64,000 nucleotides of DNA, taken from assembly GCF_964204645.1 (NCBI RefSeq), contig NC_134028.1:9527001-9591000 (forward strand), in the 5' to 3' direction. The notes under the pieces are model-generated. The model searched no databases. It was not told the origin of the DNA and saw only the letters and a program-made list of their open reading frames with translations. Shown here one piece after another: positions 5,032-47,369 of the stretch. The DNA is from Tubulanus polymorphus (taxonomy: Eukaryota; Nemertea; Palaeonemertea; Tubulaniformes; Tubulanidae). Numbering within the stretch: position 1 is the stretch's first letter; the number at the start of each line of letters is the position of its first letter. The translations under genes and the position numbers were made by a program.

Positions 5032-5364
5032 GAAACCAAAAGTTTTGAATTCTCGCGCGAGAAAACCAAACTTTTTGAATTCTCGCGCAAGAAAACCAAA
5101 CTTTTTGAATTCGCGTGCGAGAAAATCAAAACGTTTAGTTTTCTCGCGCGAGAAAACCGAACTTTTTGAATTCTCGCGCGAGAAAACCAAACTTTTTGAA
5201 TTCTCGTGCGAGAAAACCAAAATGTTTTGTTTTCTCGCGCGAGAGAACCAAAAGTTTTGAATTCTCGCGCGAGAAAACCAAAAAGGGCCACTGTGATAAT
5301 TCTTTTATCGTTGCTCTAGCCGTACAGAAAATTTTTTTAGTATGGCCCGAATCAGCCACCATAC
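5032..5364. repeat. Foldback element FB2 with eight-unit palindrome array
   Basis: Eight tandem units of about 30 bp (5032-5283) each contain a palindrome of type TTTTCTCGCGCGAGAAAA or GAATTCTCGCGCGAGAAA, with small variants. The right flank (ATCGTTGCTCTAGC ... TATGGCCCGAATCAGCCACC) is nearly identical to the right flank of FB3 at 11060-11127, so the two are one family differing mainly in unit number. The left terminal repeat is missing. The array is open in several frames on both strands; those ORFs are artefacts. Confidence 0.75.
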
Positions 5365-6340
5365 GTATCGTAGAATGGCAGACAAATATCTCTTATTAGC
5401 CATAGTTGATTTACGATATGAGTTCAACGATGTCAAGTTAATAGCGTCACTAAGAGATTGCTATGTATTTGAAAAATCGTTACTTCATAAATTCCATCGG
5501 CCAGTTTATCTAATCACAATAGTAAATATTCTCAAAGTTATTCGGATACTCTAACATACACTCTCCAGGGCCGTACCTAGCATTTGAATTTTCTTGGAGG
5601 GGGTGGCCGAAAAAGGGCAGTTCAATAGGAAAGCATCATGTCCCCTGCTTAATGAATTGTGGTACCGCCAGTTCTCTAAGAGTGCTGCGAGCAAATCGGG
5701 CGATGCCAGATTTGCAGCTCCCCTAGTATGCTTTGGGCTTTACAGACCTGCTGCCCATTCCAATGTTGCAATATCAAGTTGATCGAAAAGATTTACGTTG
5801 ACAAGACACCTACCGGTGGTCCTAACTAGTCCAACTAACTGAATTAGTAGTCGGTATTTTGCTTCATGTAAGAAGAGATTTGCTGAATCTCTTCTTGCAT
5901 GGTTCGTAGTGTGACGACATTATATTTTCGATATCATCGTAATCGCAGCTCAGAATAGATTGTACAAAGTGTCTCGGTGGTGAAATAGTGGACGATTATC
6001 TCTAATTAGCCATAGTTGATTTATGATATGAGTTTACGATACCGAGCTTAAGTAGCGTCATTAGGAGATTGTTACGTATGATTTATTCCTAAAACCGACG
6101 AACTGCGTATCTTCCACGAGCATTCGTTTTAAACCAATATTGACACACGCACCAGGAAGTGTTGATAAGTCTTTCTTAATTAGTCAATAAGTCCTTCTTA
6201 TACTTAGTTTTATCATAGCATCGAATATATGAAACGACCTGTAACACTGTCGGCTTTGCTCATTTACATCGATGGTCACCTAATCAATCGTTGGTGGCTT
6301 ATTGATATATCGGATAAAGCTTAAAACCAACCAAATTGTT
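5365..6340. other. Non-coding stretch downstream of the opsin
   Basis: No recognisable gene. A short block TCTTATTAGCCATAGTTGAT (about 5391) recurs with changes at about 6000, so a small dispersed duplication is present. Confidence 0.4.
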
Positions 6341-6347
6341 ACTGAAG

Positions 6348-6353
6348 TTTATT
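6348..6353 (-). terminator. Candidate poly(A) signal of the opsin
   Basis: AATAAA on the minus strand, about 295 nt after the opsin stop codon. It is a good position for 3' end processing but not proven. Confidence 0.4.
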
Positions 6354-6647
6354 TCCTTTCAAAATACGCAAGTAGCTGCAATGATAGCCTAGCCCTTTTC
6401 TCAATCAAAAATCATACGAATTTACGTATTTCGATTTATAGTACGCGGACCTTCGTTACATATCAGGGCGTTTAGCAACCACATAGAAATGGCTACACAA
6501 AAGTGTGTGGCCTGACGGTTTGTCAGTAAAATTCAGAAAGACTCTTAACTTGTGGGCACATTCAGATTTCTATCCCCTTTTAAAGAGCTGGTGTGAATGG
6601 ACGAGTAAACCAATATTGTGCGTTAATAGACAAGTTTGCAAACCGAA

Positions 6648-7570
6648 TCACATATGCATCTCAGCTTGTTGGTTCATATCCTGTTGACTAGCAGATGTTG
6701 GAGTGCCGATGTTTTTAAGTTCTGTATTCTGGGTGACAGTTGTAGCGACGGTATTCGTGCTAGGACTTTGAACAATGCCAGGCGAAACGATATCGGTTTC
6801 ACTGGACGCTTGCGAAATGCTCCCTCCCCTGCCGGAGACCCCGCCTGTATCTGTACGGGATAAGCTTTTCTTCGGAACTGAGATGAAGCAGGCCATACAC
6901 GGGAATTCTTTCACCAGGGCGATTTTATATTTAGGATGGCTGATGGCGTACACTATTGGGTTATAAACAGCACTGGTTTTAGCGAATAGAACGGGTATTT
7001 GCGCCACATACGGACCCAGTAGAGCTGAATCACCGATCAAACCCATCAAGGCTACTGTTGCGTATGGACCCCATGATAGGACATAGAGGGCCACGAGTAC
7101 AGCCGAGATTTTAGCTGCTTGGATATCAGATTTTTTATCTTTACCAGAGCGCATATCTTTGGCGTTCATGGCTTTGGCCATTTTAACCATTTCCCTCTCG
7201 TGCTGTCTGACGGCGAGAACGATTTTTACATAGCAGAAAATGATGGTCATCATCGGGAATGCGAAACCGAAAAGATACAATCCTATGTTGAAAATGATAT
7301 TGGAAAGCGAACGGGTCAGGTAGTCGAAGGTACAGCTACTTTGAAAACCTTCCGGGATGTAGGCTCCGAACCCGAACAGTGGTAAACCTGCCCATATTGT
7401 CGACCAAATACACGAGAATACTATCATGATAAACGCTCTTTTCTTCGTCATTCGTTTCAATGCGTCAAAAGGCGTCGCGATTACGAAATATCTGTCTAAA
7501 GCTATGAGCGCCATAGTGTTGATCGATAACAACCCGAATATACCGCCAAACAATCCGTATATCTCGCAAG
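6648..7570 (-). CDS. r-opsin exon 3 (TM3 to C terminus)
   Basis: 923 nt from acceptor AG at 7571-7572 to the TGA at 6648-6650. The first full codons give CEIYGLFGG, supplying the conserved TM3 Cys. All of TM3 to TM7 and the tail are in this one exon, with no frameshift or stop. Confidence 0.95.
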
Positions 7571-10500
7571 CTGGAAATAGACGAAATAGAGCATTTATTA
7601 ACCTGTTCCTCGTAATGTTTCTTGCAAGTTGTTTCTGTGTTCTTGCTTCGTATTCCTATGGTATTTCATCAATTTTATATCTAGCATTAAGGTAACCTCT
7701 TACCTCTTCGCCGTGATTTTATAGTATAGCGTTATATAAAGAAATGGAATATTATCACTATTGTTATTATTATTACTAAAAAAAATGAATTAGTCAAACA
7801 ATGTAAGTCTACCATTTTACAATTGTATACCAATTTTTGTATGCCGATAAACTGTAACAGTAGAAAAACGAGAGTGAGAAAGTATGAATGTGAGTGTGAG
7901 AGTGAAGAGTGTATTTGGGTACCTGTTGCTACAAATAAAAGCTTTTAACAGGTTCACCCAGCTAATATATATGTTAGAAAATTATGTAAGCACTTCTTTA
8001 TTAACCCATGTTTATTAGCTGAATAAAGAACAATAATACAATAATACAATATAATAATAAAGAATATCAAAAATTATTGATAATGTATCAAATTGACACG
8101 ACTCTTTAGACTCGTAACGTGTATATTTTTCTAATCGTTAGCAAAACTGTTTGTTTCCATTCTCTTTAATATCTATTCTATATTTAATGCTTTGTCGCTC
8201 GTTCATACTATTTTTCTCCTGACTTTTCATTTCTTTAATAGACCAATGAAAGACGTGCGGCCAGGGTTTGTGCTGGTGCGAACTTCGGCGGTAGGCAACC
8301 AAGCCCTGGCAAGCAAGTATGGGGTAATATTATGTGAATCGATGAGATCATCGATCTTAGCGTTCCCAAAATAACAATTTCAATTGTTAAAATTGGCGTT
8401 TAATTTGAAATGGATTTATTTTCACGCTTTTTTCCAAGGTGTCAATTAACTTTCGAGATAGTTTTCTTGTTAGATATTTACTTCAGAGGGGATGAAAATC
8501 TTGATGGGTAAACGTTTGAGACATATCGTGACCCAACAGATATTCGTACTTGTAATATGACTGTGTACTTTTACCTTTGCGTGTTACTTGTCAGTCGCAA
8601 AGCCTGATGGCGTGACAAGCGACAATACGTAGTCGAGGACACTATACCGGTCTCTTATATCGTTACTGTGATTACGCGATAAAAAAGCCATGTTACCATG
8701 ACAACAACAAAAATTTTAGGACATATAATATCACCGAACCCCTTGCAGACTGATTGCTTGATTCGATCGATCGATTAGCGGTAAATTGATTTCTATAGAT
8801 TGGAAATAATTTGAAAAATCAAGCAGGCTAGAGGAAACATGGTGAGGTCATTATATGGTAGCAGATAGCGTAGATATCTTGATAGGCAAATTAAGGGCGA
8901 TAAAACGCCTGAACGCCCAAACGAGAAGAAAAAAGAACGCAAAATCGTTTTAAGCAGAATCGGTTTAGTGACCCCCATCAGAAGAAATTTCGGAATTCAG
9001 TTTTGGCGACAACGCTTAAACGATAGGTTAAAGTATAACAAAAGTTCTACACCCGGTAGTTAAGATATAAATCCCACAATCACGAAATCAAAAAGTTATT
9101 TAGAAATATCGAAACTTTAAAATTTATTGAAAACCCGAATTTTCGGTTTTACGCTAATCAAAAACCATTCCTTGATAATGGTTTTTGATTAGCGTAAAAC
9201 CGAAAATTCAGGTTTTCAATAAATTTTAAAGTTTCGATATTTTCAAATAAATTTTTGATCTCGTAACTGTCGGATTTATATTTTAAACGTCTCTCACGAT
9301 TCATTGCGTAGTTTTACCTAGTTTTACACCCGGTTTCACCCCGAAAGGTTCAACTCAGGGCCCAGTTTCACATACGTATTAAGGCCTAAATCGATTTTAA
9401 GATCGCCGGAATTAATGAAGAAATTAAATCGATTTAAGAGTTAAACTTTTTTGTGAAAATGGGTCCTTCAGATCTTTGGTTAAATTGCCATTGGCAACTT
9501 CATGTTTTCATGTTTTCAATGTGGTAACAATTTTAACCTACTGTCTGTCACGCGTCCCCTGCGCGCGACGTTTCGATCCGTAATAATCAGTTGATCTGAC
9601 TTTATTTTCATTATCCATCAGTTGGATTATGCTTTCGGATTTAAACTGTGAATTGGCATAGACTAGTTTCTGGTTTCATCTATCAGCGATTGTATACCTA
9701 CAATATGCTCGCGTAATGCTGAAAAATGGCCCCCACGGTCCGTAATGTGGCACCGCCTCCTGAATTATGTTTTGCAAATTGATATGCGATGACTTCATAG
9801 CATCGTCCCCGAGCGTCCGTGGAGCAGTTTTTTGAGCGTGAGTAAACAATCGGTGATAAATGAAAAAGAAAGCAACTGAAGGAAAAGACGTCTGTTATTT
9901 CTGAATGCAAAATTCTAAAGCCGGGCGTAGGTCGTCCTTGCGACGCGACGCGATCGTCGCTGGCGGTCACAGTGAGTCGCGTCGCAGTGAGTCGCAAGCC
10001 GTCGCAAGGCCGACCTATGCCCGGCTTTACTGTCTGGGGGCGTAAGTCGGTTACGATGCGATTATCGGCGACTGTGTGCGACTAGTTTTTCAGTCGCAAG
10101 AGCGTGTAGGTCGGTTGCGACGGTCGCGTCGCGTAGCAGAAAGTAGAACATGTCCGACTCATTGCGACCGTGTCGTCGCTGGCAGTCCCAACCCGTTGCT
10201 GGCAGTCGCAAGGTGGCGTAGGTCACAAGGCTCACCTTCGCCCGTCTTAAAGCTCGCCGCACACGGTATAACATTTTGTTTTAGCACAAACAGAAAACAC
10301 GTTTTTCACAAAGCGTGAATTATTTTAAAAGCGTGCTCAACGCGCAGAAAACATTTCTTGCACCATGGAATCCATGGAATCCACAATAAACACAGTTATT
10401 CACATCAATTTTTGAATATACGTCATGTGACGCAGCGACTGATTGGTTACTCGGCCGTGTTTTGCAAAACGCAAAACATCCTACGCACACGGGACAAAAA

Positions 10501-13500
10501 ACGTTTTAACTGGACCCAGGACCCGGTGTCACAGTTGTGAGTTATGATCTTGGAGTAGATTGGTTGAAAATTAACTACATTTTCAATCAGTGAGGAACTG
10601 GGTCCTGAAAACTATTCAGGCGAATTTATCGAAACGTACCTAATTCTGGGTACAGTACTTTACGAGTATAGGGTACTCAAGTCTGGGTATCCTTTGGGGA
10701 TGAATGAGTTTTGTTGATTCTCATTGCAACAAATATGGCCGAACTGCAAATGAGTGTGGCCGCAATTTTCTTTTCTCGGGTATGCTCTTGAGCATGGTAA
10801 GGCAAGTGCCTTACCCGAAATTGAGTATACCCTTGGATAAATGTGCCGAGAACCATACTTCAAAACGAGTACATGCGTCGATAAATGCGCACTTACTCAC
10901 ACCTGAGTATGTTTCGATAAATTCGCCATGCTATGGTGGCTGATTCGGGCTTGACTAAAAGAAATTTTCTATACGGCTAGACCAACGATAAAATTGATTT
11001 TCACATCGGCCCGTTTTTTTTGGTTTTCGCGCACGAGAAAACCGAAAAACTGGCCAATGTGAAAATTTTTTAATCGTTGCTCTAGCACTAATCAAATGTT
11101 TTAGTATGGCCCGAATCAGCCACCATACCATGCCGATTCTAAGGTCCACATAATGTGAACGTATGCAACCTGGCGAATACTTACTTTTCATACCGAACGT
11201 CCATCGTCTTTGGAAGGCGGATAAAGTAAACAATGGAAATCCATTAACTGCTGAGAAAGTTGTATCCGATAACGCTAAACATATCACAAACATATTCGGC
11301 GGGGTCCGCAAAGTTTTTGTCCTGACAATAGATAATTCAAACCGATTGTTATAGTAAACCGAACATCAGATATCATTAATATCACACATTTTCTATCACA
11401 TAATACGTACACACTTACACTATGAAACTGACGAATAAACTGATAAAATGTACGTACACGTACGGAAGCGTCCTTGGGACATATCTATCTTGAAACAATT
11501 TTTCGAGGTAAATTCAGAGTTTTTAACTCGGAATAAACTAGTTTCCTTCAATTAAAAGTGATATTTCTAGGTTTCCGAGGTTTTTAGAAATTGCTTATAA
11601 TTTGATTTAAAAAAAAAACTAGTTTATTCGGAGTAACAAACGCGGAATTTACCTCAAAATTATTTTTGAAATTGATACAATGATATACGATATATTTGAC
11701 AAATAACATCATGTACGGGGCTTGAACTTAGTCCCAGGTTTGATCAACCTTATCTATGTAATGAGAATGAAGCTTACATTAAGATATCAATTGCTCGTTC
11801 ATAATGGAATATATATTTTATGCAATGACAAAAGAACATACATTAAACGCTGTTGTTGTTCGTTGAATATTTCAAGTGGCCGATCTAATTGAGAGAGAAA
11901 CTGCAGTTTTCTCTCAAATTCAACACACACTGTCATTTTCTACTTTCAATTATTGAAGTAGGAATTTCTTCAACACGTTAGGACTACTTTTTACGCTTTT
12001 CTTGTTAAAGTTGCTAATTGGGTTAGCTTCGCCGGTATACATGTCTATATAAGAAATGTCTATATAAGAAATTCAGAAAAAAAAATGAATCATCTCGTGG
12101 CAACAAAGACAAATTGTTTATGTAGAGTATCAGATCTTATCGCTTTGGTTTCTATGCTTTGACATTGTTCAATATCGAAGGGGATTTAACATGTGTAGGC
12201 AAGAACTTCATACAACAAAATGGCCTCAATGGTTTCACATCGTCACTGATCTCAGAATATTCAAAACGCGTTCAAAATACTCTAGAATTGCCATCAAAAT
12301 TCTAAATTCTTCTTTAAAATCATGTATGAATTATGATTTTTGATGGAATGTTAATATCTAATCAAAACTTTTGCTGCAAAATAGCGTAAAAGTGACCTAG
12401 AAACTGAAAACATTGAACTGCTAAATGCTGGCAAGAAATTCTAAGATCGAGTACACGATGAACTTCAAGTTATGTTCTCGCTTGCGTTTGTATTTTTCTT
12501 GTCTACTTTTAATTCCTAATGTCTTCCTGTCGTGTTTACGCTGGCGCAGCAAAACTAAACAAACAACGAAATCGGATTTTCCATGGCGGGTAAAATTTGA
12601 TGTTGATTTCAGGAGCGATGTTATATAAAGATCTTCGGTCCTGCTTCCTATAGCATACCAATATACCTTATGATGAGAAATAATTTTTAAAAAGTTTTTA
12701 GATACACTACCAGTACCACCACCACTGCCATCATCCACAATAACAAAAACAACAACCAACTATTTACCACCGACAACAACACTATCACCACCACCAACCA
12801 CCATCACCACGATCATCACCACCTTCTCAAGCATCACCAGCCACGAAGAACATTCGCCGCTTCGCTGGGCATAAATAAGGGTTTTCTAAGTATTGGAAGG
12901 AGCCCGGCCTGTGTTTCTTATTTAGAGCTTGATCACATCAAGATCACAACAAGAAGACTGAAGTCAGTCCATTTTAGGTACCCGGGGATACACAGTGACA
13001 AATCAAACAATTTATTGGTTTCGTCAGAGTAACCAGAGAGCAATTTGCCAAAATTTTCTTTTATATTGGTGCGAGTTTACATTTACCCTAAAACAACGAA
13101 TAGCACGAAGGGAAATTTTTAGAATGGATTTGTATTGCATCTACGCATTGATACGCGAACGTAGAAAATCACCCCATTGAGCGATTCGGTAAACGGATGA
13201 CACTGGCTTGAGTGAACACGCAATTGAGAAAAAAAATCTCGCTAATTCTTGAAGCTTTGCTGTTGGCGAAGCGGATGATAGACAATGTGAACGTGCCTTC
13301 AATGGTATGTCTTTGTGCAAGGCCACTAATCAAACTACACAACTGATAAAAACGATATAGCACTGTAGGCCCTCGCTAAGGTAAGTAACTCGCTATGCGA
13401 TTAACTGTGACAGAGATATAAAATCCGATTAATGAAACCCCAACATATCATCCTTAAAATCGATATCTTAAAAGATCATATCAAGTCAATAGATCATTGG

Positions 13501-14770
13501 CAATATTATGGACGCGCGCGCTGTAAACGGAGTAACGTGGCACAGCGCATGCGTAATACACAACCAATGACGGGATTGCCAGATTTGATCATGATCAGAC
13601 GTTGCCATGCCTGGCAATCCAGATTGCTGTTGGCGAGTAAGTTTAGATTAAAATTACGAAGTCTATGTATAAACCATATACGGTATGGACCTGGCTCCTA
13701 TTTTGCTGAGCCTACAGGCGTGTGGTGGGCTTTGGAAGACGATGTTTCAATCATTTCATACGCATTGAAATCATCAAAACTATGGAATTTTTACTATTCA
13801 ATGTTGCGGTGTTAGGTCTAAGAAAAGAAGATGGAACAAGAAAATCCTCTAACGATTCTAATGATTCTAAAACAGATAAAGATTCTAAAGCGTAACGAAC
13901 TTTCAGCAGGAAAATGGAGAAAGTGACCTAAATTTTAGAACGTAGAATACCCACATTTCATTCACATCTGATGATAATCTCATTAGCGAGTGTCCAGAAT
14001 TTCGTCGTATCACTTTAAATTCATTGGTTTCAATCATTGATACAATTCGGTTCGATAACTATGATTTTTTCTTAGTTCAATGAAGTGGGCTTTTTGAAAT
14101 ATTATTACATTTTGTCTGCGTTTAATAACGAGCGGTAAATTCATTTCAAGCGGTCAATTCATTTCAAGTAGTTTCAGCGGGTATTTCAATTCAATTATAA
14201 TATTTTTCTGTTCATATAAATCGGGCATTTTTTAAACGTTTTACATTTTTTCTTCAAGCAATCAAAGTTTTTTCTCGAATTACGAATTTACTAATTTACT
14301 GCATGCGTAGGTAGTTTCCAGTTTATATTCTACGTAATTCATTGGTATCATTCATTGATAATGTTTGGTTTGATAGTTTTTTTTTCTAATTTCATTAAGT
14401 GGGCATTTTTACATTTTGTGTGCGAGCAATCGATTCTTTTTCTCAACGGATTTGCTAATTTACTGCATAGGAAGTTTCAGTGGATATTCTGTTCTTTTTA
14501 TACTCACTTGCAGAATACAAACACTACGAGCATATTACCAATAACGCCGATGATTCCGATTATACCGATATAAATTCCTACCAGGTAGAAATGTAAATCT
14601 GGAATGCCCGGTATGTCGAATTGTCTCCAATGTGGGTGGATATACATGTCATCGTAAACCCACCATTTAGTCGTGTTATCTTCGGGTGTCGTACAAATTC
14701 CGGAAGTGGTGATCGGGTCTGCCGATGATGTCAAGATCGACGTACTCGGCGGCGGCTCTGAGGTTGACAT
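6648..14770 (-). CDS. Rhabdomeric (Gq-type) opsin, three-exon gene
   Basis: Spliced CDS of 440 codons: exon 1 14508-14770, exon 2 11185-11321, exon 3 6648-7570. All junctions are GT-AG with matching phase (2 and 1). The product is a seven-transmembrane visual-pigment GPCR. It should bind retinal and, by family, signal through Gq/phospholipase C in rhabdomeric photoreceptors. Visible marks: HPHW before TM1, GN at 78-79 (TM1), LALSD at 103-107 (TM2), the Cys pair C135 and C213, Y138, counterion-site E207 in IPEG, DRYF at 159-162, retinal Schiff-base K331 in FAKTS, NPIVY at 337-341, and the HPK triplet at 345-347 typical of Gq opsins. CMAC (358-361) is a likely palmitoylation site. The long Ser/Thr-rich tail suits kinase/arrestin control. 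NTT at 32 is a possible N-glycosylation site. Subfamily (canonical r-opsin or melanopsin-like) is uncertain. Confidence 0.95.
8849..9010. repeat. Degenerate FB-type fragment
   Basis: Begins TATGGTAGCAGATAGCG and carries GGCGATAAAACGCC and TTTTGGCGACAACGC. This resembles the FB1 ends and palindromes in decayed form. It lies in opsin intron 2. Confidence 0.35.
9065..9284. repeat. Near-perfect 220-bp hairpin element
   Basis: Two arms of about 105 bp are almost exact reverse complements around a loop at 9171-9174. The left arm includes CCCGAATTTTCGGTTTTACG and the right arm GTAAAACCGAAAATTCAGG. The outer parts (ATATAAATCC / GGATTTATAT) also pair. It is a foldback element in opsin intron 2. Confidence 0.85.
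9358..9466. repeat. MITE-like inverted repeat
   Basis: GGGCCCAGTTTCACA pairs with TGTGAAAATGGGTCC. Inner AAATCGATTTTAA and TTAAATCGATTTA also pair. About 109 bp, in opsin intron 2. Confidence 0.6.
9916..10260. repeat. GTCGC-rich foldback MITE pair
   Basis: 9916-10029 is bounded by TAAAGCCGGGCGTAGGTCG and its inverted copy CGACCTATGCCCGGCTTTA, with GTCGC-rich arms between. 10030-10260 is a second, more decayed block with the same GTAGGTCG and GTCGC vocabulary. In opsin intron 2. Confidence 0.6.
10517..10606. repeat. Short MITE-like inverted repeat
   Basis: CAGGACCC and GGGTCCTG ends, with an inner TTGAAAAT / ATTTTCAA pair. In opsin intron 2. Confidence 0.45.
10619..10927. repeat. MITE family M1, complete copy
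   Basis: Terminal repeats GGCGAATTTATCGAAACGTA and GTATGTTTCGATAAATTCGCC. The interior shares ATACCCTTGGATAAAT and GGTAAGGCAAGTGCC-type blocks with the copy at 2.3 kb in the opposite orientation. In opsin intron 2. Confidence 0.75.
10932..11127. repeat. Foldback element FB3, single palindrome unit
   Basis: Complete element with both ends: TATGGTGGCTGATTCGGGC at left and its inverted copy at 11105-11127. A single core palindrome TTTTCGCGCACGAGAAAA lies at about 11020-11045. Its flanks are nearly those of FB2, which carries eight units. Confidence 0.8.
11185..11321 (-). CDS. r-opsin exon 2 (TM2)
   Basis: 137 nt; acceptor AG at 11322-11323, donor GTAAGT from 11184. It encodes residues 89-133 including LRTPPNMF and LALSD, which follow TM1 in all opsins. 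It sits only 58 bp from foldback element FB3 in intron 2. Confidence 0.93.
11493..11667. repeat. MITE with about 45-bp inverted ends
   Basis: TTTTTCGAGGTAAATTC and GAATTTACCTCAAAATT are inverted. Inner GGAATAAACTAGTTT and AAACTAGTTTATTCGGAG also pair. It lies in opsin intron 1, 170 bp upstream of exon 2. Confidence 0.7.
12700..12845. repeat. CAC/CAA-rich low-complexity tract
   Basis: Imperfect CAC, CAT and AAC triplets, in opsin intron 1. The Gly/Val-rich minus ORF across it is an artefact. Confidence 0.7.
14508..14770 (-). CDS. r-opsin exon 1 (N terminus and TM1)
   Basis: ATG at 14770, then 87 codons plus 2 nt. It encodes a Ser/Thr/Pro-rich extracellular N terminus, the HPHW motif and TM1 (about residues 61-86). 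Donor GTGAGT begins at 14507. Reading through the donor would give a stop two codons later, so splicing is needed. Confidence 0.93.
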
Positions 14771-14872
14771 GATTTACTAGAAAAGAAAAATGGCTAATTA
14801 GTCAGCAACATTTATCTAAGATATTAAAAAATCGATATCATAGAAGATTTTGTTTGATTTGTTTACATTTGG

Positions 14873-16627: not shown

Positions 16628-16651
16628 CTATCTATCTATCTATCTATCTAT
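16628..16651. repeat. (TATC)n microsatellite
   Basis: Six tandem TATC units. Confidence 0.9.
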
Positions 16652-17084: not shown

Positions 17085-17410
17085 GGTTCGTTTTAACGCC
17101 ACAAAAACTAGATTTTTACGCTACGTTAAAATGAACTGTTCATCTTAACGTAGTCTTTTTGGTATTAACGAGGTTTCGTGCCACGTTGAAACCAGTTTTA
17201 ATGCCGCTTTCAAAAGAGCTCTTCAAGAACTGGTTTTAACGTAGCATCTAAACGAAAAGCTGGTTTTAACGTGGCGTTAAAACGATAAGTTGGTTTCAGC
17301 GTGGCGTTTTAAACAAAAAGTGTAAAACTAGAATAAGAATTGGTGAACATCGAGTGTCATATTTTCTTTTTGTTATTGTGGCCCGAATCACCCATCATCA
17401 TAAGCCAAAA
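17085..17410. repeat. Foldback element FB5 with AACG palindromes
   Basis: Repeated units such as TTTTAACGTGGCGTTAAAA and related AACGTAG / AACGAGG variants (about 17090-17310). The right end GTGGCCCGAATCACCCATCA is a variant of the FB terminal repeat. No left terminal repeat was found. Confidence 0.6.
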
Positions 17411-25195: not shown

Positions 25196-26524
25196 CTAGA
25201 TTAAAACGATAACAATATATATTCATAGTAGATATTTTGGTACAAGGAAACGCAAACCAAATCTTGAAAAAAATTATCTCTTTTTGAACTGTTTTGAATA
25301 CGGCTGATCGATAAGGGCCATACAAATATTTCTCAACAAAAAATATAATTTCGTCGTTAAAAATTGAATTTCCATCAAAGTGAAACGTACGTAAATGAAA
25401 ATTAAACGCGTTCAGGACCCTTAGGTAGAGTTTTTGGTTTTGGATCCCAAAACGTCGCAATGGGCCTCTGTGACCTACAGATATAGAGGTGCTGTCATCG
25501 GCAACGTTCATGTAAAAAGTTAGATTAGGGACCAAAATGTTGTACAGACAAAAGTTAGGGATCTTGATTTTGATTCCTTCTCCCTCAGACCTCCATCATC
25601 GTCCTAACCGTGTAGAAATATATACATTTTTGAGTACGACATAGTTTAATAATCAGGCCCTATAAAAGTGAAACCTCCAATATTCTACATACATGGACTA
25701 CCGCAGATCACTAGAAGAGGGACGAAATAACGGATTTTTAAGTTTCTGTAGCTGTAGGATCTAAAAACGAAGAAATCGAGCAGTTCGTATGTCGGTCAAC
25801 GCGCTACAACATTGTTAGGTCAAACACTACTATGCCCTAGTTGTAGCACAGTCAATAAGCATGCGCAAATGGGAAACCCCGAAATGGTTTTTCAGCGATA
25901 TTTCAGACATAGGAAAATATTTCGATAGAGATGGAATTGTTTTACTCACGCGATTCATCTTTCACGTCGGAATTATTTTCACTTGGCGCAAATATATTTT
26001 AATGTAAATTCGAATCTATTTTTTTAAAGACGAAATTACATTTGTCAAGAAATATTTTATGGCCCTTATCAGCCACCATAGATTGAACTTATATAAACAC
26101 AGTGGATACACAGAAGGAAAATCAATAATGGAAAAGAAGAAAGCCATTATCAACAGTTTTGGAAAGACTCATAATATTGAGTCAGAACAGTAAATTTCTC
26201 TCTTGTACTTCTTGTTCTATTAAGATATAAACATTCACTATATACCAACGATGGATTCATTGTTATCCTTTAAAAATGGAAAGCTTTATTTCATTCCAAA
26301 TTATCCAATAACCTTAAAAAGAATAACGTTCGTTCCAAATAGCCCTTGAACCCAACGAACAACAAAACCTTCAAGTTAACAAGATTTTGATGAAAACGGA
26401 TTTCTCGGCAAGATATTGTGAAACGATAATCAGTACGCAGAAATACTTTTTGATACGCTATAGAAAAAAAGCACTTACCAGCAAGAATAAGAAGAATCAA
26501 AACCGCGACAGTTGTAAGCTTCAT
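24999..26524 (-). CDS. Candidate small secreted acidic protein, two exons
   Basis: Exon 1 26479-26524 (ATG, 15 codons plus 1 nt) encodes MKLTTVAVLILLILA, a textbook signal peptide, and ends at donor GTAAGT. Exon 2 24999-25195 follows acceptor TCTAG at 25196-25197 with matching phase 1 and runs 64 codons to TAA. The spliced product is 80 residues: signal peptide (1-15), a basic stretch with KR (24-25), then an acidic Ser/Thr segment with TETSGD twice, a GGSGG turn and a basic C terminus. No Cys is present in the mature part. Family unknown; a secreted peptide precursor or matrix/mucus protein is conceivable. The intron contains foldback element FB6. A possible extra exon at 25951-25990 was rejected. 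Confidence 0.5.
25297..26084. repeat. Foldback element FB6 in intron
   Basis: Left end GGCTGATCGATAAGGGCCAT and right end ATGGCCCTTATCAGCCACC. Inverted similarity continues about 45 bp inward (AAATATTTCT ... AATTTCGTCGTTAAAAA and the matching right arm). It has the same end type as FB1. The interior is not a clear palindrome array. Confidence 0.55.
26479..26524 (-). CDS. Signal-peptide exon of the candidate secreted protein
   Basis: 46 nt; ATG at 26524-26522; donor G|GTAAGT at 26478. Directly upstream is a two-copy tandem repeat (see 26525-26600). Confidence 0.55.
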
Positions 26525-38145: not shown

Positions 38146-38297
38146 ACTTTTTGGATCCTAACATGGTGTCGGGTTGGTTTGGACTCTTTCTTGCAAATTT
38201 TCCGCAGTGGGGGCATGGGGTGTAGGTTTTTCGCAGGTGAATTCGCTGCCGTTTCCTTTGTACAGTTTACCGTCGATGTAAAGCTTCCCTTCCCAAT

Positions 38298-39128
38298 TTA
38301 TGTAGGCTTTACGTCCAGATGTTGTAGCCTTTCTTTTATTGGGATTAGTTGTTTTATTGTTGCTCTCGTTTCGGGACAGAAATCTTCACCGATTGAGATT
38401 CCAGAGCCTTTCAGCTTGTAGGCATTTCTTCGTACCTTTTCTCGGTCCCGGTAGTTTTGAAACCGAGCAATAATTCCTCTCGCTTTACTGGTTTTTCGAG
38501 ATAGACGGTGGGCGCGTTGTAGGCAAATCTCGTCGGGATTCGTAATCCCTAGTTCGTGGTCTTTGATGATTTTTCTTACGATTTCGTCGCAGTTTTCAGG
38601 TTGATTTTCGTCTGTTGATTCCGGTACACCGTAAATGATGAGATTTTCTCGTCTATTGTAATTCTCGAGAGAATTTAAGCGGGAAGTTAGTTTTTGATTT
38701 TCTTTTAAGATGGATTGAAGTGTGTCTGTATTTTCTCGCATATCTCGACGGATTATATCGTTTTCGACACGGGTATTGATCACAGAGTTTTTTGTCGCCG
38801 TGATTTCATTTTCAACCTTTAACACCCTTTCCGAGAGATTGGCCATCGAACTGGATATATCGTTTATTTTGCTGTGTAGGTTCGGGAGAACGCTCATCTT
38901 GTCTAAGAGAGTTTGGAACATTTGGTCAATTTTGGATTCGAGTTTTTGACAGCTCTTACACGGATCGTTAATTACATGGCGGGTGATTATACTTCCTGTT
39001 TCAATGTCTAGGTAGTCAAGTGACCCACCGTTGCATAATTCGGGACTTCGGTGGAGAAGGCGTCGTTTATCCCCTGGCCTTGGGTCGGTAGCTCTATTGT
39101 CGGGAGTTACGTTCATGTTGTTCGCCAT
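38298..39128 (-). CDS. LINE B ORF1 (coiled coil plus RRM-like domain)
   Basis: 276 codons, intact. The N terminus is followed by a CKSC motif and a long heptad-rich coiled coil (about residues 60-150, with LPNLHSKINDI and VLKVENEI). The RRM-like part is LENYNRRENLIIYGVPES ... RAHRLSRK ... GIIARFQNYRDREKVRR, and the C-terminal domain is GISIGEDFCPETR. This is the L1-type ORF1p plan: trimerising coiled coil, RRM, CTD; it binds element RNA. It ends about 150 bp before the first ORF2 frame. Confidence 0.8.
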   Translation of the reverse strand: MANNMNVTPDNRATDPRPGDKRRLLHRSPELCNGGSLDYLDIETGSIITRHVINDPCKSCQKLESKIDQMFQTLLDKMSVLPNLHSKINDISSSMANLSERVLKVENEITATKNSVINTRVENDIIRRDMRENTDTLQSILKENQKLTSRLNSLENYNRRENLIIYGVPESTDENQPENCDEIVRKIIKDHELGITNPDEICLQRAHRLSRKTSKARGIIARFQNYRDREKVRRNAYKLKGSGISIGEDFCPETRATIKQLIPIKERLQHLDVKPT

Positions 39129-39925
39129 TATGTCGATCGATTATGTTGTTGTTGACGTATTCCATAGTTAGCACATTTTGTCAAATATACTACGTACCAG
39201 CTTTACTAGATTTTGAAATGTTCAAAGTATTCAAACTACTTGTTTTCTGAAGGCGTAGCTCAGCAAAAGTTATCTGAGCTCACTCACTTTTGTGTAGACT
39301 TTTGGTCCGTTATAGTCCAGAAGAGTATGGGTGGTGTAGGAACCACAGAAAATAACTTTTGTAGGAGAGATCTACATCGTACTACCAGCTATCCGCCATC
39401 TTGAATTTATAAATTTGTTTCTTGTTTACGGATAGTCATAATACAGTGCAGAAATTGTTTCCTTTTTTTCTGTAATCAAACCAATGTTGTATAAAAAATT
39501 TTGTGAGCGTTGCAAAATTATTTCGCAGAAATGACGGGCAATTAGGTGAACATACTAATATTGGTCGTTAGATTTCCTTTAATACGGTTTTCCAATTTTA
39601 CAGGTTTTCTAGAAACAAATTGAAACCAATTCCTGCCGAACAAAACTTTGATTTATAAACAAAATTCACGATTAAGATGGAAATTCAGATACTTACCCAA
39701 TTACATTTCATATAACCATCCTGCTGACAAAGAAAATAATAATCTTCACTGCATAGATTTAGAATTTTTTTCTATGAGAAATTATACTCGTTTCTGTTCT
39801 TGGCATCTGTTGCCTAGAAAAAAAGTAATTTCGGATAAGTTTGCAGGAGAATTGTATCGCTACTGGTTTCGAGGCTGGGCTCTCTACGGTACATACTATA
39901 ATTCGGCAGATCTTCAATGACCTTT

Positions 39926-40090
39926 TATTAGGGTTTCTGCTGCTTTCGCAGAAACACTCTTGTAATTCTGTTGATTATTGTTATTGTTTGTTGTTAAATT
40001 TTCCACTTTCCAGCCAAAAAGTTTTCATAAAATGTAACTCCTCTCAGATTCGACTACTAACAGCTTGTAAACGTAATTTTCAATTATGAC
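39926..40090 (+). repeat. Dispersed repeat R1, copy 1
   Basis: Begins with the hairpin AGGGTTTCTGC / GCAGAAAC, then CTCTTGTAATTCTGTTGATT and an ATT/GTT-rich run. It shares this order and later blocks (CAGATTCG, GACAGCTT-like) with the copy inside LINE C. Confidence 0.65.
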
Positions 40091-40170
40091 AAAAATTTAA
40101 CTTAGCACCCGAAAATTTCGAATTTGCGTATAGTAATCTATTATGAATTAATCCTGCGTTATTTCCGGAT

Positions 40171-40545
40171 CTAAACAGCGACAAGAATGTCGCAATGAAT
40201 CGTCAACCATTGATTAATTGAAGTAATATACTTAGAAAGAAGGGAATTATGCGGAGAAAAGCCATTATTTAAATTGGTACTAATATCTGAGTGACGAGTT
40301 ATTAGGGCACACTCAACTATGTGGCGTTTAGTGTAATTGCTGGAAGTATAAATAATTTCGGCTTTATCAAAATTAAAACGATGACCAGTGTTCCAAACGT
40401 GATTGGCTACGCCACTTGCCGGTTTTTGATTTATTATATCCTTTTTGTGTTCCGAAATTCGAGTTTTTAAATCACGACCAGTTTCTCCAAAGTAAATTTT
40501 ATCAAAGCCAAAACAAGGAATTTTGTAAACTCCGCAGTCCAAAGG
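40171..40545 (-). pseudogene. Penelope-like element, GIY-YIG endonuclease (minus copy)
   Basis: 123 codons: VYKIPCFGFDKIYFGETGRD, LKTRISEHKKDI, VANHVWNTGHRFNF, HIVECALITRHSD. This is the C-terminal GIY-YIG nuclease of Penelope-like retroelements; both the (V)Y and YFGETGR halves and the Arg of TRISEHK are visible. The RT upstream is absent, so the copy is 5' truncated. It lies head-to-head with a plus-strand copy beginning at about 40552. Confidence 0.85.
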
Positions 40546-40664
40546 TTAGATTACTCGTCACTCAGATATTAGTACCAATTTAGTTTATTGGTTTATTTAC
40601 TCCACAATTATACAATTGCACAGAGAACAAAATTATTTGACAATATACATTGCAACATATAACA

Positions 40665-41710
40665 TTAGAAATGTATTAAACATTTGCGTATATACAACGC
40701 CAGTTTTTTAAGGGTTTGGCAATTTGAGTTGAACAAATCATACAACTTTACGTTATTGGGGAATCTCCAATAACGCTCCGGGATGTATTTAGCTCTGGAT
40801 TCCTGGAAGTACGGGCAGACGAGTAAAAAGTGATATTCATCCCCCACTGCCTCTAAATCACACTTTTGGCACAGCCTATTGGCACGGGCAATTCCACGCC
40901 ACCGCCCAACTTCCACCGGTAGCCTGTGAGCTGAGCATCTAAATCTACATAAAGTTAACTGGTCCCTAGGAGTTAATTGAGTTAGATACTTTTCCATTTC
41001 GAAACGGCATTTGATTGTTAAATACGTAAGAGCCATAGTGGAATCAGTAAGTTTTGCATGCCACACTTGCATAAACTGATCCTGCAATCTCTGTTTAAGT
41101 ATCAGACTCAAGTAATTCACGTTTGGAATATTTTGATTTTCCCAAATATATCCGAGCCCGTTTCGGAGCAAAATGTTCTTCACAAAATCCATCCAAGAGT
41201 TAGCTTGACCATCAATATAGCTATTATAAACACAACTGTAAACCTTTGACGATAATTTTTCATCAGTTATTAATTTTGCCCAAAAATTGACAATTCTGAG
41301 CTGCACGTAAACTTCGAGAGGAAAACGACCAAGTTCCCCATAGACAAATGAGCTATTAGTAGATTTCTTTAACTTGAGTAAATATTTAAAAAATTTCAGC
41401 TACACGCATTCAAGAACTCGGAGATTTTCGTAACCCCAAATTTCACATCCAAATAATAGAATTGCTAATACCATGCTATCATATAACTTTAAACTAACAT
41501 CAACGTCTAGTGAATATTCGCTAACCTTTCTTTTAAAACAGAGAACATAGCCCGCTGCGCTTGGCTTGCTAACGCTTTTCGGCACTGAACAAAAGACCCG
41601 GTATGGGAGAATAGTATACACAAATACTTATCGTTATATACTAACTCCAACACTCGACCGTTTATGTTAAACTCCGGAGGGTTTCGGAGTCTTCGTTTCG
41701 AGAATATCAT
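40665..41710 (-). pseudogene. LINE C RT thumb and C-terminal finger
   Basis: 41400-41710 holds FSKRRLRNPPEFNINGR and ASQAQRAMFSVLK in two frames. 40665-41306 (213 codons) holds LCRFRCSAHRLPVEVGRW and CQKCDLEAVGDEYHFLLVCP, the same finger as LINE A but with the upstream segment that LINE A has lost. Confidence 0.8.
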
Positions 41711-42230
41711 TAGGGTTTTCTGACTTTCGTCGAAAACCCTCTTGCAATTCTGTTGATTATTATTATTATTTATTTTCCGCCGATTTCGTCAAATAAAATT
41801 CATCTTCATTCAGATTCGGCATCTGACAGCTTCGAAACGAAATGTATAAATTGATACTGTAATAACGGTCTCTCTGAACCAACAGATTGTCTGAATGTAC
41901 TTTCCATCTTATTTGAAACTTAAAATTACTTATTAGGTTACTGTAAATAAAGAATTGAATTGAATTGTTAGACAACAAGCACCGGCGAAATAACAGTTTG
42001 TGACGTCATTTAGTAAGTAAATAAAGGAGGGCTCCGAGAATTTCCAAATCACGGGGACTATACTGGGGTTAGACCATTCAACCAAAAAGAGGATTGCTCC
42101 GATAATATCCAAATCATCTCATTTTATTTTTTCCATCGAATACCCGGTAATTAATTTTTCCTTTCGATCACATGCATCCAGAAAACCCGTTATCGCTGCT
42201 TTGCAGCTGTATTTTTTTCGCAATTTATTA
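41709..42230 (+). repeat. Insertion in LINE C including repeat R1, copy 2
   Basis: Interrupts the RT between WKL and MIFSKRRLRNPPEF. It starts with the hairpin AGGGTTTTC / GAAAACCCT and CTCTTGCAATTCTGTTGATT, matching R1 copy 1. R1 covers about 41709-41970; the rest is unclassified. Confidence 0.7.
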
Positions 42231-42678
42231 GTAACTTCCATTCTTTACAATAAACATGCAGGTTGTCAATCAATTTCTGAAGTCCCTGTGGACTCTCGCT
42301 CATAAGTACTGTATCGTCTAAGTACATAAGGATCATCAATTTGACCCATGCATCATTACGCATGCGCAGATTTAGGGAGGGACAATTTTGGGCATCTTAA
42401 TAGCCTTCCAGATCATTTAAAAATATTGAAAAGAGCACGGGGGACAAGTTTTCTCCCTGTCTGACACCCATAAAACTTTCAAAGGCATCTGTTTTACTAC
42501 CATTATAAAATACACATGACTTGATGCCCTGGTATATGCTATATATTACATTTAGAACTTTGCCCGTAACACCACTATTGATCATCTTATGCCACAAAGC
42601 CTTTCTCCATATGCTTTCAAAAGCACGTTTGTAATCTACAAAAATGCAGTAAAGCTTGCGATTACTATTCAAAAACAT
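42210..42678 (-). pseudogene. LINE C RT catalytic part
   Basis: YCIFVDYKRAFESIWRKALW and MGVRQGENLSPVLFSIFLND, then after a stop the catalytic-site frame MYLDDTVLMSESPQG and WKL, where the R1-bearing insertion begins. Confidence 0.75.
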
Positions 42679-42680
42679 AT

Positions 42681-43578
42681 CTACAAGTATATATGGTCCA
42701 GAATACTGTGTTTTTGTCTGAAACCTGCTTGATTTTCCAGTAGTATATTGTTCGTCTCTAGGTAATTAGTTAGCCGGTTGTTAATGACACTAGTAAAAAG
42801 TTTGCCTACATTGCTCAACAAAGTCACGCCCCTATAGGTACTTGGGTCATCGGCACTACCCTTTTGTTTGTAAATAGGTATAATCATTCCGTTTAACCAT
42901 GGTTCGGGGATATTACCTGTATCAAGGACAATGTTAAAAAGACACATAAGTGTTGGTAATAAACTCTCCTCGGCCGATTTTAAGAAATCGTTAGGGATTT
43001 TGTCCGTACCACATGCCTTAAAGTTTTTTAATTTATTTATACTCTTTAATATTTCATCCCCGTTAATAGGTTGATTTAAAGGGGTTTGGTCATAGTTATT
43101 GCCGTTAAAGTCTTCGACGTTATGAAGCGGTGGTTCACTTCCATCCAGCACGGGACGCTCGTTCATAGATTTGAAGTGTTTTAGGAAATCAGCGCTTGAG
43201 GCATTACACGTGTTATTGTGGTTCTTCTTGAAATAGTTCCAGAAGTTGTGAGGGTCAGATTTTGACAGTGAACGTATTTTCTCGTTGAAAAACCCTTTTC
43301 CTATCACTATTCCATTTGTGAATGGCGTTTTTGTATTTACGGAACGCACGGTTCATTATGGAATAATTATTACGTGAGGGTAAATATGAGTATGTTCTTT
43401 TTGCACGACGATAATCCAACCTGGTGTTTCTAACGACTTCGTTTTGGGTAGCCTTGGCTGGTGGCCGAGGTTTCGATTTACGTTTGACAATTCGTTTCCC
43501 CATTACTTTAACGGCCGATTGTAACATAACAACACAAAGCCGTTCATTGGCTTTGCTGGCGTTCAATGACCCATTCAT
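42681..43578 (-). pseudogene. LINE C linker and RT N-part
   Basis: Two overlapping frames (43255-43578 and 42681-43349) with RRAKRTYSYL, DPHNFWNYFKK, ACGTDKIPNDFL, STYRGVTLLSNVGK, NQAGFRQKHSILDHIYL. A frameshift lies near 43300. Confidence 0.75.
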
Positions 43579-44364
43579 CAGGTTTTTATTTCAATAAGAA
43601 CCGTTGAATTCCTCGAAATGACTTGTGCAAATTGGTCTTTTTTATCTGGGTCCCAGTTCACTACCTCCTCCGGTTCAACATTTTGAGAACCAGTTACAAC
43701 TGGCGCTGATGTCTTAAGTTGTAAATGCGTCACGATGGCACTATGTACGTCGGAAAGTAACCGGTCGAATTCCATTACCTCTAGCCGCTTTACATAGTTT
43801 ATAAGGTACGATGACGAAATCATGTAGTCGACAATATGTTCATTATCTCCTTTATGGCACGTAAAATCACCAAGTGTTAAATCAGGGGCTATACGACCAT
43901 TCAGGATAACGATTGAATGGTTTTTACATAGTTCCACCAACCGTAAACCGTAGTTGTTAATAGAAAGATCTTTTGTTTTACGTCTGGTAATATTAAGGGA
44001 ATTTAATATTTGTACACAAGTATTGGTGTCTGCAAAAACCTCGTTTTCGAATTCTAGCCCTTGTGTTAAAAAGTCGTTTGGGTCACTATAATCAAATAGG
44101 CTTCCAGTGTACGCATTATAATTCTCTATTATTTCGAGATTCAATTTGTCAAAACACTCACTTCCACCGTAACTGCTGGATTCGGGTGGAACGTAAACAC
44201 ATCCAATCTGGATATTTTTTTCAAATCCAGTTAGCTGCTTATGAACGCGCAGCCACAGAATTAATTTACTTTCGCTGTCAATAGGACACGCATGTGGAGC
44301 TAAGTTCAGTCTAACGGCGATCGCTATAGCTCCTGAACGGAACGATGATATTTTTTTCCGGTTC
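43578..44364 (-). pseudogene. LINE C endonuclease domain
   Basis: FRSGAIAIAVR, IQIGCVYVPPESSSYGG, NNYGLRLVELCKN, GDFTCHKGDNEHIVDY parallel LINE A. The segment that holds ISGDFNS in LINE A is missing between IIENY and NAYTG, so the nuclease lacks a catalytic block. Confidence 0.75.
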
Positions 44365-44507
44365 TTAATGGCTTTTCTCCGCATAATTCCCTTCTTTCTA
44401 AGTATATTACTTCATGCCTTGCCAAACACTAATTACTTACTCACTCACCAATTTACTCAATTAACCTGTCCTCCTCTGTATATATACCCCTGTTTTTAGT
44501 CTATATC

Positions 44508-44556
44508 TCATACCTGACGATGATTTCTAAGGGTGAGATCGAAACGTCGTGTCTTT
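44508..44556 (+). ncRNA. Hammerhead-like motif in Penelope 3' region
   Basis: CTGACGA (44514-44520) and GAAACGTC (44541-44548) flank a 6-bp stem GATTTC / GAGATC with a 7-nt loop. ATAC before the first box can pair with GTGT after the second (one wobble). Hammerhead ribozymes with CUGANGA and GAAACGUC are known in Penelope-like elements. One extra unpaired U lies between the first box and the stem, so activity is uncertain. Confidence 0.45.
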
Positions 44557-44600
44557 TATATATTTTAGATTGAATAAATAAATTCTGGTTTTTAAATTCT

Positions 44601-46400
44601 TTTAATCTCTAAATAGTGGGATTTTATCTTATTATCCGTTCACCACGTTTGAGTGTGGTTATCGTTCTATTAAGCGCAACTGTCTCAGATGGTGTAAGTA
44701 CTTGACGTTTTGTTTTTTTTTCTAATGCGGCATGTTTACAATATTTGGATTAGTAATCAGTCGTGCTAACGTATATGCAGAATTGGATTCATTGTTATTA
44801 TGGGGTGATAATTCATGGGCCTCAAGAGTCCTGTTGTGAATACTATAATAGTGAATACTGGAATACTACAATCTGGATTTAACTGATTTCTGTGTACAGC
44901 ATTTCAAGCATGAATTATCCTTTATATGTTAAGCAGTTTGTGATTTACACATCATTGAACACATGTATTTATATTGGTGAGTCCTGTACTGTGGGTGAGA
45001 AATAAACTAGACGTCTTCGAATACAGTCGTTTCGTCGTTCGTTCCGAGTATACCAGGGAAGTCGTTTACACCTGTGACAAACCTTTGATTTGAAGCTCTT
45101 AGAGACTTGTTGTGGAGTAAACTGAATAGCCCTTAAAATACCAATGCCACATAGCTTAATGGTATCTATGCTTGCGAGACAGTAGTAATAGTTTTTTTTC
45201 ACGACAAACGCATGATTTAAATTGGTCTCCTAAGATATCTATCATTAACTAATTTTTACATGTGATCGCTAAATTGCTGGTGGAAAGAGGTCAGATGGCA
45301 TGAAAATCGACTGTGGCTGACTAATTGCTGCGAGTAGATCAGGCGTTGTTGTTTCAAAAGGTGGAGCCAAAATGCTTGTATCATCAGGGGTAGACAAATT
45401 ATCCGAAGATAAACGAAAACTTCACCTCGTTGATCGTCAGTTGATTTTGTTTAAGAGAATTTCTTTCAATAAAATGAAAATTTATTTCATTAATTGTATT
45501 CAAGATTGAATTTGAATTGATCTTAAAACTTAAAACCAGAGAAAGCATTCTTCAGAAATTTAAAAAATCCTAGACTCATAATCAAATTTTGTGAAGTCAG
45601 TTAAGGTCTTTTGCTCGAATCAAGCCGAGGGCTCAGGTGGCTGAAATTCAATTCTTCTATGTCCCATAATGCCGCGTTCGATGGAGTTTACGCACTGAAA
45701 AACAATGACCGCCCTGCCCCGCTGCATCTGAGGCATAAACAATTAGTTAGACAGTATTGCTTCGATGCTTTGACAAACAGACTCTTAAGCAATGACCTAT
45801 GACCTGCCAAATCAAATGTAAATTAAGAAAGAAAACAACAAAATTAATTGATCAATCAATGTCTTGCGTCTTCAAAAAAATTTCCCCGGGAAATATTAAT
45901 TTTTCTAGTCTCCACCTGCCTCGACACAAAACTTTTTCAAGTTGATGCAACTGCCATCAGCGGACCATATCTACGGTATCCCCAATGCCATTTTGACTAG
46001 ACTTGGTACATCAGTACTTTTTACGTGGCAGCCTTTATGGATCCACATATCCAGCATATTGTTGACCCAAGTTGTGCTTCTTGGAAATTGTCATATGTTA
46101 TGGACGGATTAGAATTATTTCGGTGAAATCTTTTTTACGCTTCCCAGTGCGACATATGAATCAGTTAGGCAGAAACCCATTATCGATGCTATGCAGCTAT
46201 ATTTCCTATTTTAGAGCCTCCTTTGTGCCACGTGTGGCACGAGCGTTCACACACCGCCTATTAATTTCCACAGTCGAAACGACTATAAGACTATAGTTGA
46301 ATTTCTAGTTTGTAGGTAAATTGTTTGTAGATTTTTGTTCGATGAATTATTTGTGAAACCCGAGGAAGCGTGTAGAGGAAGAGTGTACCCTAAAACAGCA
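44601..46400. other. Non-coding stretch, nothing recognised
   Basis: Short ORFs only, without family features or convincing splice context. Confidence 0.4.
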
Positions 46401-46408
46401 TAAACCCG

Positions 46409-46530
46409 TCTCGGCAGACGATTCTACTGGACCCCCACAGTTATGAGTTTCGGATCGACTCAGAGTAAACGTATTGAAAATGAGCTGACTGTAACTCAGA
46501 GTTTACTCATACTCACAACTGTGGAACCGG
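46409..46530. repeat. MITE-like inverted repeat
   Basis: CCCCACAGTTATGAGT and ACTCACAACTGTGGAACC are inverted, with inner CTCAGAGTAAAC / CTCAGAGTTTAC blocks. Confidence 0.45.
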
Positions 46531-46720
46531 ATTCTGGTGATAATTGTTGACTCAACGATTATTGTAGCATAGATTCAGTCAGACTAGGCGTACTTAATCG
46601 GCTAATCGATTTTCGCCGAACTTTGCTGGTGGTCCATTCCATGAAAGCAATTCGAATTTTCTAGTCGGCGAATCGATTCGCACGAAACCATTTAATATAT
46701 GTCATATATTATCACCGAAC

Positions 46721-47369
46721 TATGGTGGCTGATTCGGGCCATGTAAAAAAAAATCACAAATGGTGCAAATTTTTTTTTACAGACACCTAAAAGTCGTTTT
46801 ATCGCGCAATAAAACGAAAATTACGACGTTAAAATGAGAAATTAGCGCGATAAAACAAGAGAAAGTCGTTTAATTGCGCAATAAAACGAGAAAAAGTCGT
46901 TTTATCGCGCGATTAAAACGAAAAATAGCGCGATAAAACGAAAGATTAACGCAATGAAATGATTTTTTATTCGTTTTACATCGTGATAAAACGAAAGAAC
47001 AAATTCCGTTTTCTCCATTTTTCGTTTTAACGTGGCAATAAAACGAAAAAGTTCGTTTTATCGCGCAATAAAACGACTTTTTCTCGTTTTATCGCGCAAT
47101 AAAACGATTTTTTCTCGTTCTAACGTGGTAATTTTCGTTTTATCGCGCTATTTTTCGTTTTTACGTGGCAATAAAACGAAAACGTTCGTTTTATCGCGCA
47201 ATAAAACGACTTTTTCTTGTTTTATCGCGGTAATTTTCGTTTTAACGTGGTAATTTTCGTTTTATTGCGCAATAAAACGACTTTTAAGTGTCTGCAAAAA
47301 AAATTTGTAACGTTTGTGATTTTTTTATTACATGGCCCGAATCAGCCACCGTACGAATCAGCCACCATA
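46721..47369. repeat. Foldback element FB4 with long ATCGCGCAAT palindrome array
   Basis: The ends TATGGTGGCTGATTCGGGCC and its inverted copy (47332-47352, with the last 17 bp repeated once to 47369) bound about 650 bp. The core is filled with palindromes of type GTTTTATCGCGCAATAAAAC and shortened variants. Both subterminal regions (GACACCTAAAAGTCG / CGACTTTTAAGTGTC) also pair, so the whole unit can fold on itself. Confidence 0.8.

Follow-up and report, generated by a model that had tools for sequence, protein, structure and literature searches.

Foldback elements with a common end and lineage-specific half-site arrays in the nemertean Tubulanus polymorphus

The window analysed here is a 64,000-nucleotide stretch of the genome of the palaeonemertean Tubulanus polymorphus (NCBI RefSeq assembly GCF_964204645.1, contig NC_134028.1, positions 9,527,001 to 9,591,000, forward strand). 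It contains a group of foldback elements, FB1 to FB5, which have a common 20-bp end and internal arrays of short palindromes. We find that the subterminal sequence inside the end sorts these elements and their relatives elsewhere in the genome into lineages, A to G, that the array cores differ likewise, and that the arrays are built from a repeated 10-bp half-site, GCGnnAAAAC, present singly or as inverted pairs (the palindromes). A first-pass annotation had proposed a single family resembling foldback elements and miniature inverted-repeat transposable elements (MITEs), whose members share their ends and core design but vary in the number of units, and this proposal is borne out.

The common end and the elements in the window

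The 20-bp end, TATGGTGGCTGATTCGGGCC, matches nine places in the window at up to three mismatches, compared to 0.00 expected, and has 314 exact copies in the 268-Mb genome against none for the reversed control, so the common end that had been claimed is real. A sister form terminating in ...GATAAGGGCC has 443 exact genomic copies. The fetched loci are those that head the listing, on contigs 1 and 2, together with one further locus, L099, and the window, both on contig 4, and they therefore do not constitute a random sample of the genome. Among them, 35 inverted pairs of ends lie 148-1398 bp apart, with TATGG..CCATA termini. Target duplications, which the first-pass annotation had suggested looking for, are present: 17 of the 35 paired elements are flanked by an exact duplication of 6 bp and one by an exact duplication of 7 bp, whereas shuffled pairing gives 0.5 at 6 bp, and allowing one mismatch raises the 6-bp count to 20/35. 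In addition to these duplications, the MITE features found are short length, lack of coding sequence, two inverted ends, many copies, and ends in common with a coding element, while the long, internally repetitive inverted arms are those of foldback elements. The 35 paired elements have an observed/expected CpG ratio of 2.15, compared to 1.18 for the window. Elsewhere in the genome, three exact ends on one strand of contig 5 (C5:4904087, 4906733, and 4909382; contigs are abbreviated in this manner throughout) are spaced by 2.65 kb, possibly as a tandem array containing the element.

The end had been described as lying on one or both sides of each element; FB3 and FB4 are indeed two-ended, and FB1, FB2, and FB5 have one end only. 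FB3 (10932..11127) is a complete A-lineage element of 196 bp with one decayed core (TTTTCGCGCACGAGAAAA), flanked by the target duplication CCATGC on the left (10926..10931) and on the right (11128..11133). It folds into one hairpin (z -12.8), and its sole exact half-site has CG instead of AG as the two variable letters. FB4 (46721..47369) is a complete B-lineage element filled with an array of GTTTTATCGCGCAATAAAAC-type units, whose nine half-sites all have AT and whose hairpin has a z of -27 (20 shuffles); its target duplication is CCGAAC (46715..46720 and 47370..47375). On the right side of FB4, the terminal sequence is doubled with a 16-bp offset (47334-47353 and 47350-47369), perhaps as a slipped or repaired end, and the duplication lies beyond the outer copy. 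The element entered the duplication test with its outer right end (47369). FB2 (5033..5363, minus strand) belongs to lineage A like FB3, and the common flanks noted earlier for these two are confirmed. It has its end at 5344-5363, lacks the left end, and holds about eight 30-bp units (5033-5283) with seven half-sites, all AG. The unit number thus varies as claimed, from one in FB3 to about eight in FB2 and many in FB4. FB1 (1404..1640, plus strand) is of lineage C: the ...GATAAGGGCC end at 1404-1423 is followed by TTTTGGCG..CGCCAAAA cores with a single exact half-site, CC, at 1512, and the right end is missing. FB5 (17085..17399, minus strand) is of lineage F, with TTTTAACGTGGCGTTAAAA cores, two half-sites that both have TT, and an end with three mismatches at 17380-17399. 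A lone 20-bp match to the GATAAGGGCC type of end on the minus strand (26061..26080) has no half-sites across the 400 bp inside it.

Lineages and the half-site code

The half-site GCGnnAAAAC occurs 510 times inside 127 ends (50,185 bp, up to 400 bp inwards, short paired elements being counted from both ends) and 16 times outside them (49,619 bp). When lineages are assigned from the 45 bp adjoining the end, the two variable letters follow the lineage: AG in A (66/71), AT in B (37/44), CC in C (73/77), TT in F (7/7), and CA in G (37/37). The mutual information between lineage and these letters is 2.12 bits, compared to a maximum of 0.56 in 1000 permutations; this figure uses 200 bp per end with no cut at the opposite end, and both it and the majority counts exclude 15 of the 127 ends as unclassified. 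Lineages C and E differ in the same manner at unpaired half-sites near the end, which read GCCAAAACG in C and GACAAAACG in E, as they do in their cores. Many of the one-letter departures from the half-site frame are C-to-T or G-to-A.

The palindromes had originally been summarized as TTTT, a CG-containing core, and AAAA. Palindromic CpG cores are present, but the rule is only approximate, as AATTC often takes the place of the AAAA side in lineages A and E. Since a strict TTTT..AAAA definition therefore misses A-lineage units, it was dropped in favor of a palindrome scan combined with the half-site. Chance low complexity does not account for the palindromes, given that the full palindrome GTTTTnnCGCGnnAAAAC occurs at 519 genomic places and the reversed pattern at two; for the first 50 distinct places listed among the 519, all on contig 1, a hand count gives 49 that have an exact GATAAGGGCC end no more than 1.6 kb away. 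In lineages A, B, E, and F, the most frequent distance between the centres of neighboring palindromes is 30-31 bp (19/29 intervals in A, 7/19 in B, 175/259 in E, and 3/4 in F), and the arms hold near-identical higher-order repeats, for example, 144 bp × 8.0 at 97% and 154 bp × 3.8 at 98%.

The first-pass annotation had considered each element to be filled with its own palindrome through local amplification and homogenization within the copy. This description holds by subfamily but not by copy, as each core in the window recurs in copies of the same lineage elsewhere among the fetched loci. For 552 palindrome-centred units from 53 elements, unit identity is 0.683 when both units come from one copy, 0.738 when they come from different copies of a subfamily, and 0.404 across subfamilies. 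Here, the two arms of one element are merged, and six paired elements that the palindrome scan had left unclassified were assigned by hand (lineage A: L017, L036, and FB3; C: L035; B: L038; F: L051). The corresponding values are 0.487, 0.505, and 0.361 without lineage E, and 0.725, 0.732, and 0.404 when the arms of the long C and G elements are counted separately. Within lineages A, B, C, and G, 128-328 of 500 permutations of the copy labels did as well as the real labels. Because identity within copies is not above that between copies, the proposed mechanism fails for most lineages, with E (a small effect) and F (a weak one) as exceptions, and copy-specific private cores are rejected for A, B, C, and G. 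Core differences track lineage, although tandem amplification inside copies does occur, as in the 144-bp units.

The E-lineage arrays are nested in a larger dispersed repeat at 13 of the 13 fetched loci with an exact E end (L074, L075, L082-L091, and L094; around 1500). These loci have a common outer flank, ...GACCTTAAGGCTTTAG and close variants, whose length ranges from 0.2 to 1.5 kb between pairs and whose identity in the matches listed is 86-99%. In L085, the array comprises 36 copies of a 31-bp unit.

Coding elements and neighboring features

Two-ended elements of 7-14 kb that carry matches to helix-turn-helix (HTH) and integrase-core exons are found with two of the codes. The G element (C2:6483115-6490467) is 7,353 bp long, with G-lineage ends, the target duplication GGATTG, and arms with 154-bp repeats; in the C element, the two arms share 98.8% identity across 1,220 bp, and the duplication is AATATG. 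An exon pair adjoining the left arm of the G element contains an HTH-like stretch with a weak match to Pfam HTH_33 (E value 0.0008, below the cut-off). This stretch matches 17 loci (19 rows), nine of which lie beside a C or G end and eight of these nine between two inverted ends 7-14 kb apart: six between C ends at 8.6-9.9 kb and two between G ends at 7.4 and 14 kb, with a seventh C locus beside one end. At all nine, the gene begins 0.7-1.6 kb from the end and reads inwards, and three exon matches to the integrase core PF24764, a model that we take to cover IS3EU, come next in order on the same strand. They cover positions 5-40, 103-142, and 142-173 of 194 in C1:4406522-4416409 and 2-33, 100-147, and 143-173 in the G element. 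As the exons are weak singly, it is their order, strand, and repetition that carry the argument, although copies within a lineage do not count as independent evidence. One C copy has a stretch reading KRIERWWRSLRNEVVQFW, which contains RIERWW, presumably the region of the catalytic glutamate. By visual comparison, the first coding stretches of the C and G elements are alike as far as an exon boundary that they have in common. The 100-bp C end has 91 copies at up to two mismatches, and the 59 that are exact include the ends of a 536-bp element (C1:3101910) and of a 9.9-kb one (C1:4406522). Judging from these sequences, the HTH and integrase-core loci inside C and G ends are likely the autonomous partners, encoding a putative transposase.

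The pieces of a second gene in the G element have no Pfam match; one of them has no PDB match either, and it recurs in a further lineage. This lineage (C2:9567707-9573196, C8:2437523-2449517, C6:17984091-17989561, and C12:9298445) has HTH and integrase-core exon matches and carries the second gene in three of its four copies; the listed exact 20-bp ends of both forms all lie more than 35 kb from the C2 copy. Three short gene pieces scanned against Pfam gave no THAP domain. At C4:12847393-12858441, HTH and PF24764 exon matches lie about 11 kb from an exact end, and the end at C4:12847393 does not have the A-lineage start ATACT. On contig 12, PF24764 exon matches with C-like spacing recur at three positions separated by about 23 kb (C12:6502745, 6525778, and 6548875), as if a transposon copy had been caught in a tandem duplication. 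The 3.2-kb pair of L099 (C4:21229595-21232827) was rejected as a coding element, as it consists of an A-lineage fragment, an open reading frame of 328 residues, and an adjacent C-lineage element.

Other features of the window include a further foldback element at 49195-49634 that has palindromic units of its own (AATTAAATC...GATTTAATT and TTTTCGACCGG) but lacks the 20-bp end, a near-perfect palindrome at 9060-9286 (110-bp arms at 92%, 7-nt loop), a 47-bp inverted repeat at 48378-48836 (96% complementary, 365 bp apart), and, near the latter, a perfect 26-bp pair at 48585-48894. An opsin-like receptor exon lies on the minus strand at 6860-7650; its top PDB matches are the rhodopsins 4ww3 (E value 1.7e-70), 2ziy (2e-70), and 2z73 (3.4e-70), the first and last of which we take to be squid rhodopsin.

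A recognition role for the arrays and its alternatives

IS3EU transposons have TA..TA termini and duplications of usually 6 bp, according to the available part of PMC10045372, and in rust fungi the termini are TAYGG..CCRTA, according to that of PMC12730594. The TATGG..CCATA ends, which fall within this pattern, and the 6-bp duplications found here thus fit the IS3EU superfamily (with GingerRoot), and the integrase-like domain (PF24764) is a further likeness. The available parts of the two papers describe the ends and duplications but not lineage-coded half-site arrays. Nothing on such arrays in IS3EU was found among the titles and abstracts listed in a search of the open-access literature, Repbase entries being outside its reach. 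The lineage code rule looks like the part that is new, the elements being otherwise of a known kind.

We consider it fairly probable, on the basis of the sequences, that these are IS3EU-like transposons and that their long arms consist of arrays of lineage-specific binding sites for the transposase. The elements would comprise cut-and-paste DNA transposons of the IS3EU type together with short non-autonomous derivatives (MITEs), and the 20-bp terminal repeat would be the site where the transposase cuts and joins, giving the 6-bp target duplication. The foldback arms would present many copies of GCG-nn-AAAAC, single or in inverted pairs and about 30-31 bp apart in several lineages, to which the element's own integrase-like transposase most likely binds through a DNA-binding domain. 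Such arrays could render a short end that is common to all lineages both specific and cooperative. The variable letters would differ by lineage through diverged recognition by each transposase, the short derivatives would retain the code of the lineage moving them, and unit number would shift by ordinary tandem expansion and contraction. By analogy with the Galileo and CACTA elements considered below, the arrays probably serve recognition and the outer 20 bp cutting and joining. An intact transposase, its binding to the half-sites, mobilization of the elements, and co-evolution of code and protein are what we infer. A bolder version, in which at least seven IS3EU-type lineages in one genome use the same cleavage end, have two-letter codes co-evolving with the binding domain and arms of up to a kilobase or more, and are mobilized in a mutually exclusive manner, is plausible but more tentative.

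A number of observations weigh against the main reading, that of IS3EU-like transposons with recognition arrays. The code is mixed in lineages E (AC 25/46, AT 18/46) and D (CT 6/12, CC 4/12, CA 2/12), and B has a second code, TT (4/44). The assignment behind the uniform G count is not fully independent, because the 45-bp G reference itself holds one half-site. Near-sites that depart from the frame by one letter are common, with 109 cases of A for the first G, 88 of A for the third G, and 44 of T for the C. With only about seven lineages, within which copies are non-independent, a permutation over copies overstates independence, and the letters could simply have been passed down without serving any function. 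The palindromes are spaced at 15/23/71 bp in lineage G and at 32/45/67 bp in lineage C; for B, the mode is 31 but the median 41, and the F value comes from four intervals only. An exact 6-bp duplication is absent in 18/35 paired elements. As regards the coding copies, they are linked to C and G only, not to A, B, D, E, or F; the arms of the G element are only 87% alike, over 663 bp; at the settings used, neither a C nor a G end accompanies the other eight of the 17 HTH loci; exons inside the elements match PF24764 weakly when taken singly (E values 0.002-0.6); and all 40 PF24764 matches at E values up to 0.001 lie outside the eight bracketed elements. Ten of those 40 reach E values below 1e-50 and may represent other families.

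The arrays might instead have no recognition role and simply be tandem repeats that expanded through slippage, unequal exchange, or hairpin-templated copying within foldback arms, with lineages differing by founder. The near-identical higher-order repeats, the very stable hairpins of FB3 and FB4, and the small number of lineages all agree with such an origin, as does some within-copy excess in lineage E (0.817 compared to 0.782, 0/500 permutations). We nevertheless consider it unlikely, because the GCG..AAAAC frame is kept across differing subterminal sequences while the two letters between change, symmetrically in palindromes, because hairpin copying does not require C and E to differ alike at unpaired half-sites, and because the cores of A, B, C, and G are not specific to individual copies. 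The last point also bears on the private amplification and homogenization of each copy favored by the first-pass annotation: beyond the excess in E and a weaker one in F (38/500 permutations, 10 units), within-copy identity does not rise above that of the subfamily, and this explanation seems very improbable. The half-sites could also be bound by host proteins, such as E2F-like cell-cycle factors or CpG-binding or methylation factors, which would couple transposition to the state of the host. The C-lineage core TTTTGGCGC appears to fit the E2F consensus, but only C and partly D do so, and a single host factor would want one site, whereas the discriminating letters here vary by lineage. Although E2F sites have been amplified by MITEs in Brassicaceae, according to the available part of a review, we regard host binding as improbable.

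A transposase-recognition role for the arrays would have partial parallels in other superfamilies. Target duplications in the P superfamily are about 7-8 bp long, and the 6-bp duplication together with the PF24764 exon matches speaks against placement there. Galileo, a P-superfamily element of Drosophila, resembles the present elements in having a short end conserved between subfamilies and long subfamily-specific arms with tandem repeats, and these repeats hold sites for the DNA-binding domain, whose binding is partly subfamily-specific; however, its transposase is of the THAP type, only three sites were mapped, and a two-letter code in a fixed 10-bp frame is not described in the available part of the source (PMC3688188). 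CACTA elements (En/Spm, Tgm) have subterminal motif arrays bound by an element-encoded protein, and they likewise combine conserved ends with arrays of short motifs that differ between subfamilies in one genome. They differ in their 3-bp duplication, CACTA ends, and occurrence in plants, and a constant frame with a variable dinucleotide is not described in the accessible text (PMC2613891). Tetris/DAIBAM of Drosophila virilis comprises long and short elements with common outer ends and tandem repeats in the arms, but its repeats are 220 bp long, and the part of the source available makes no mention of a palindromic CpG half-site (PMC4079207).

The present elements constitute a natural set, with the same ends and the same 10-bp frame but different letters at two positions, and at least two of the lineages (CC and CA) include coding elements. 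Recognition of transposon ends by transposases is usually studied by mutation. Here, escape from cross-mobilization by relatives, and the manner in which MITEs follow their helper, would be testable with a few proteins and oligonucleotides. If true, the recognition role would provide a reason why foldback elements keep long and costly repetitive arms.

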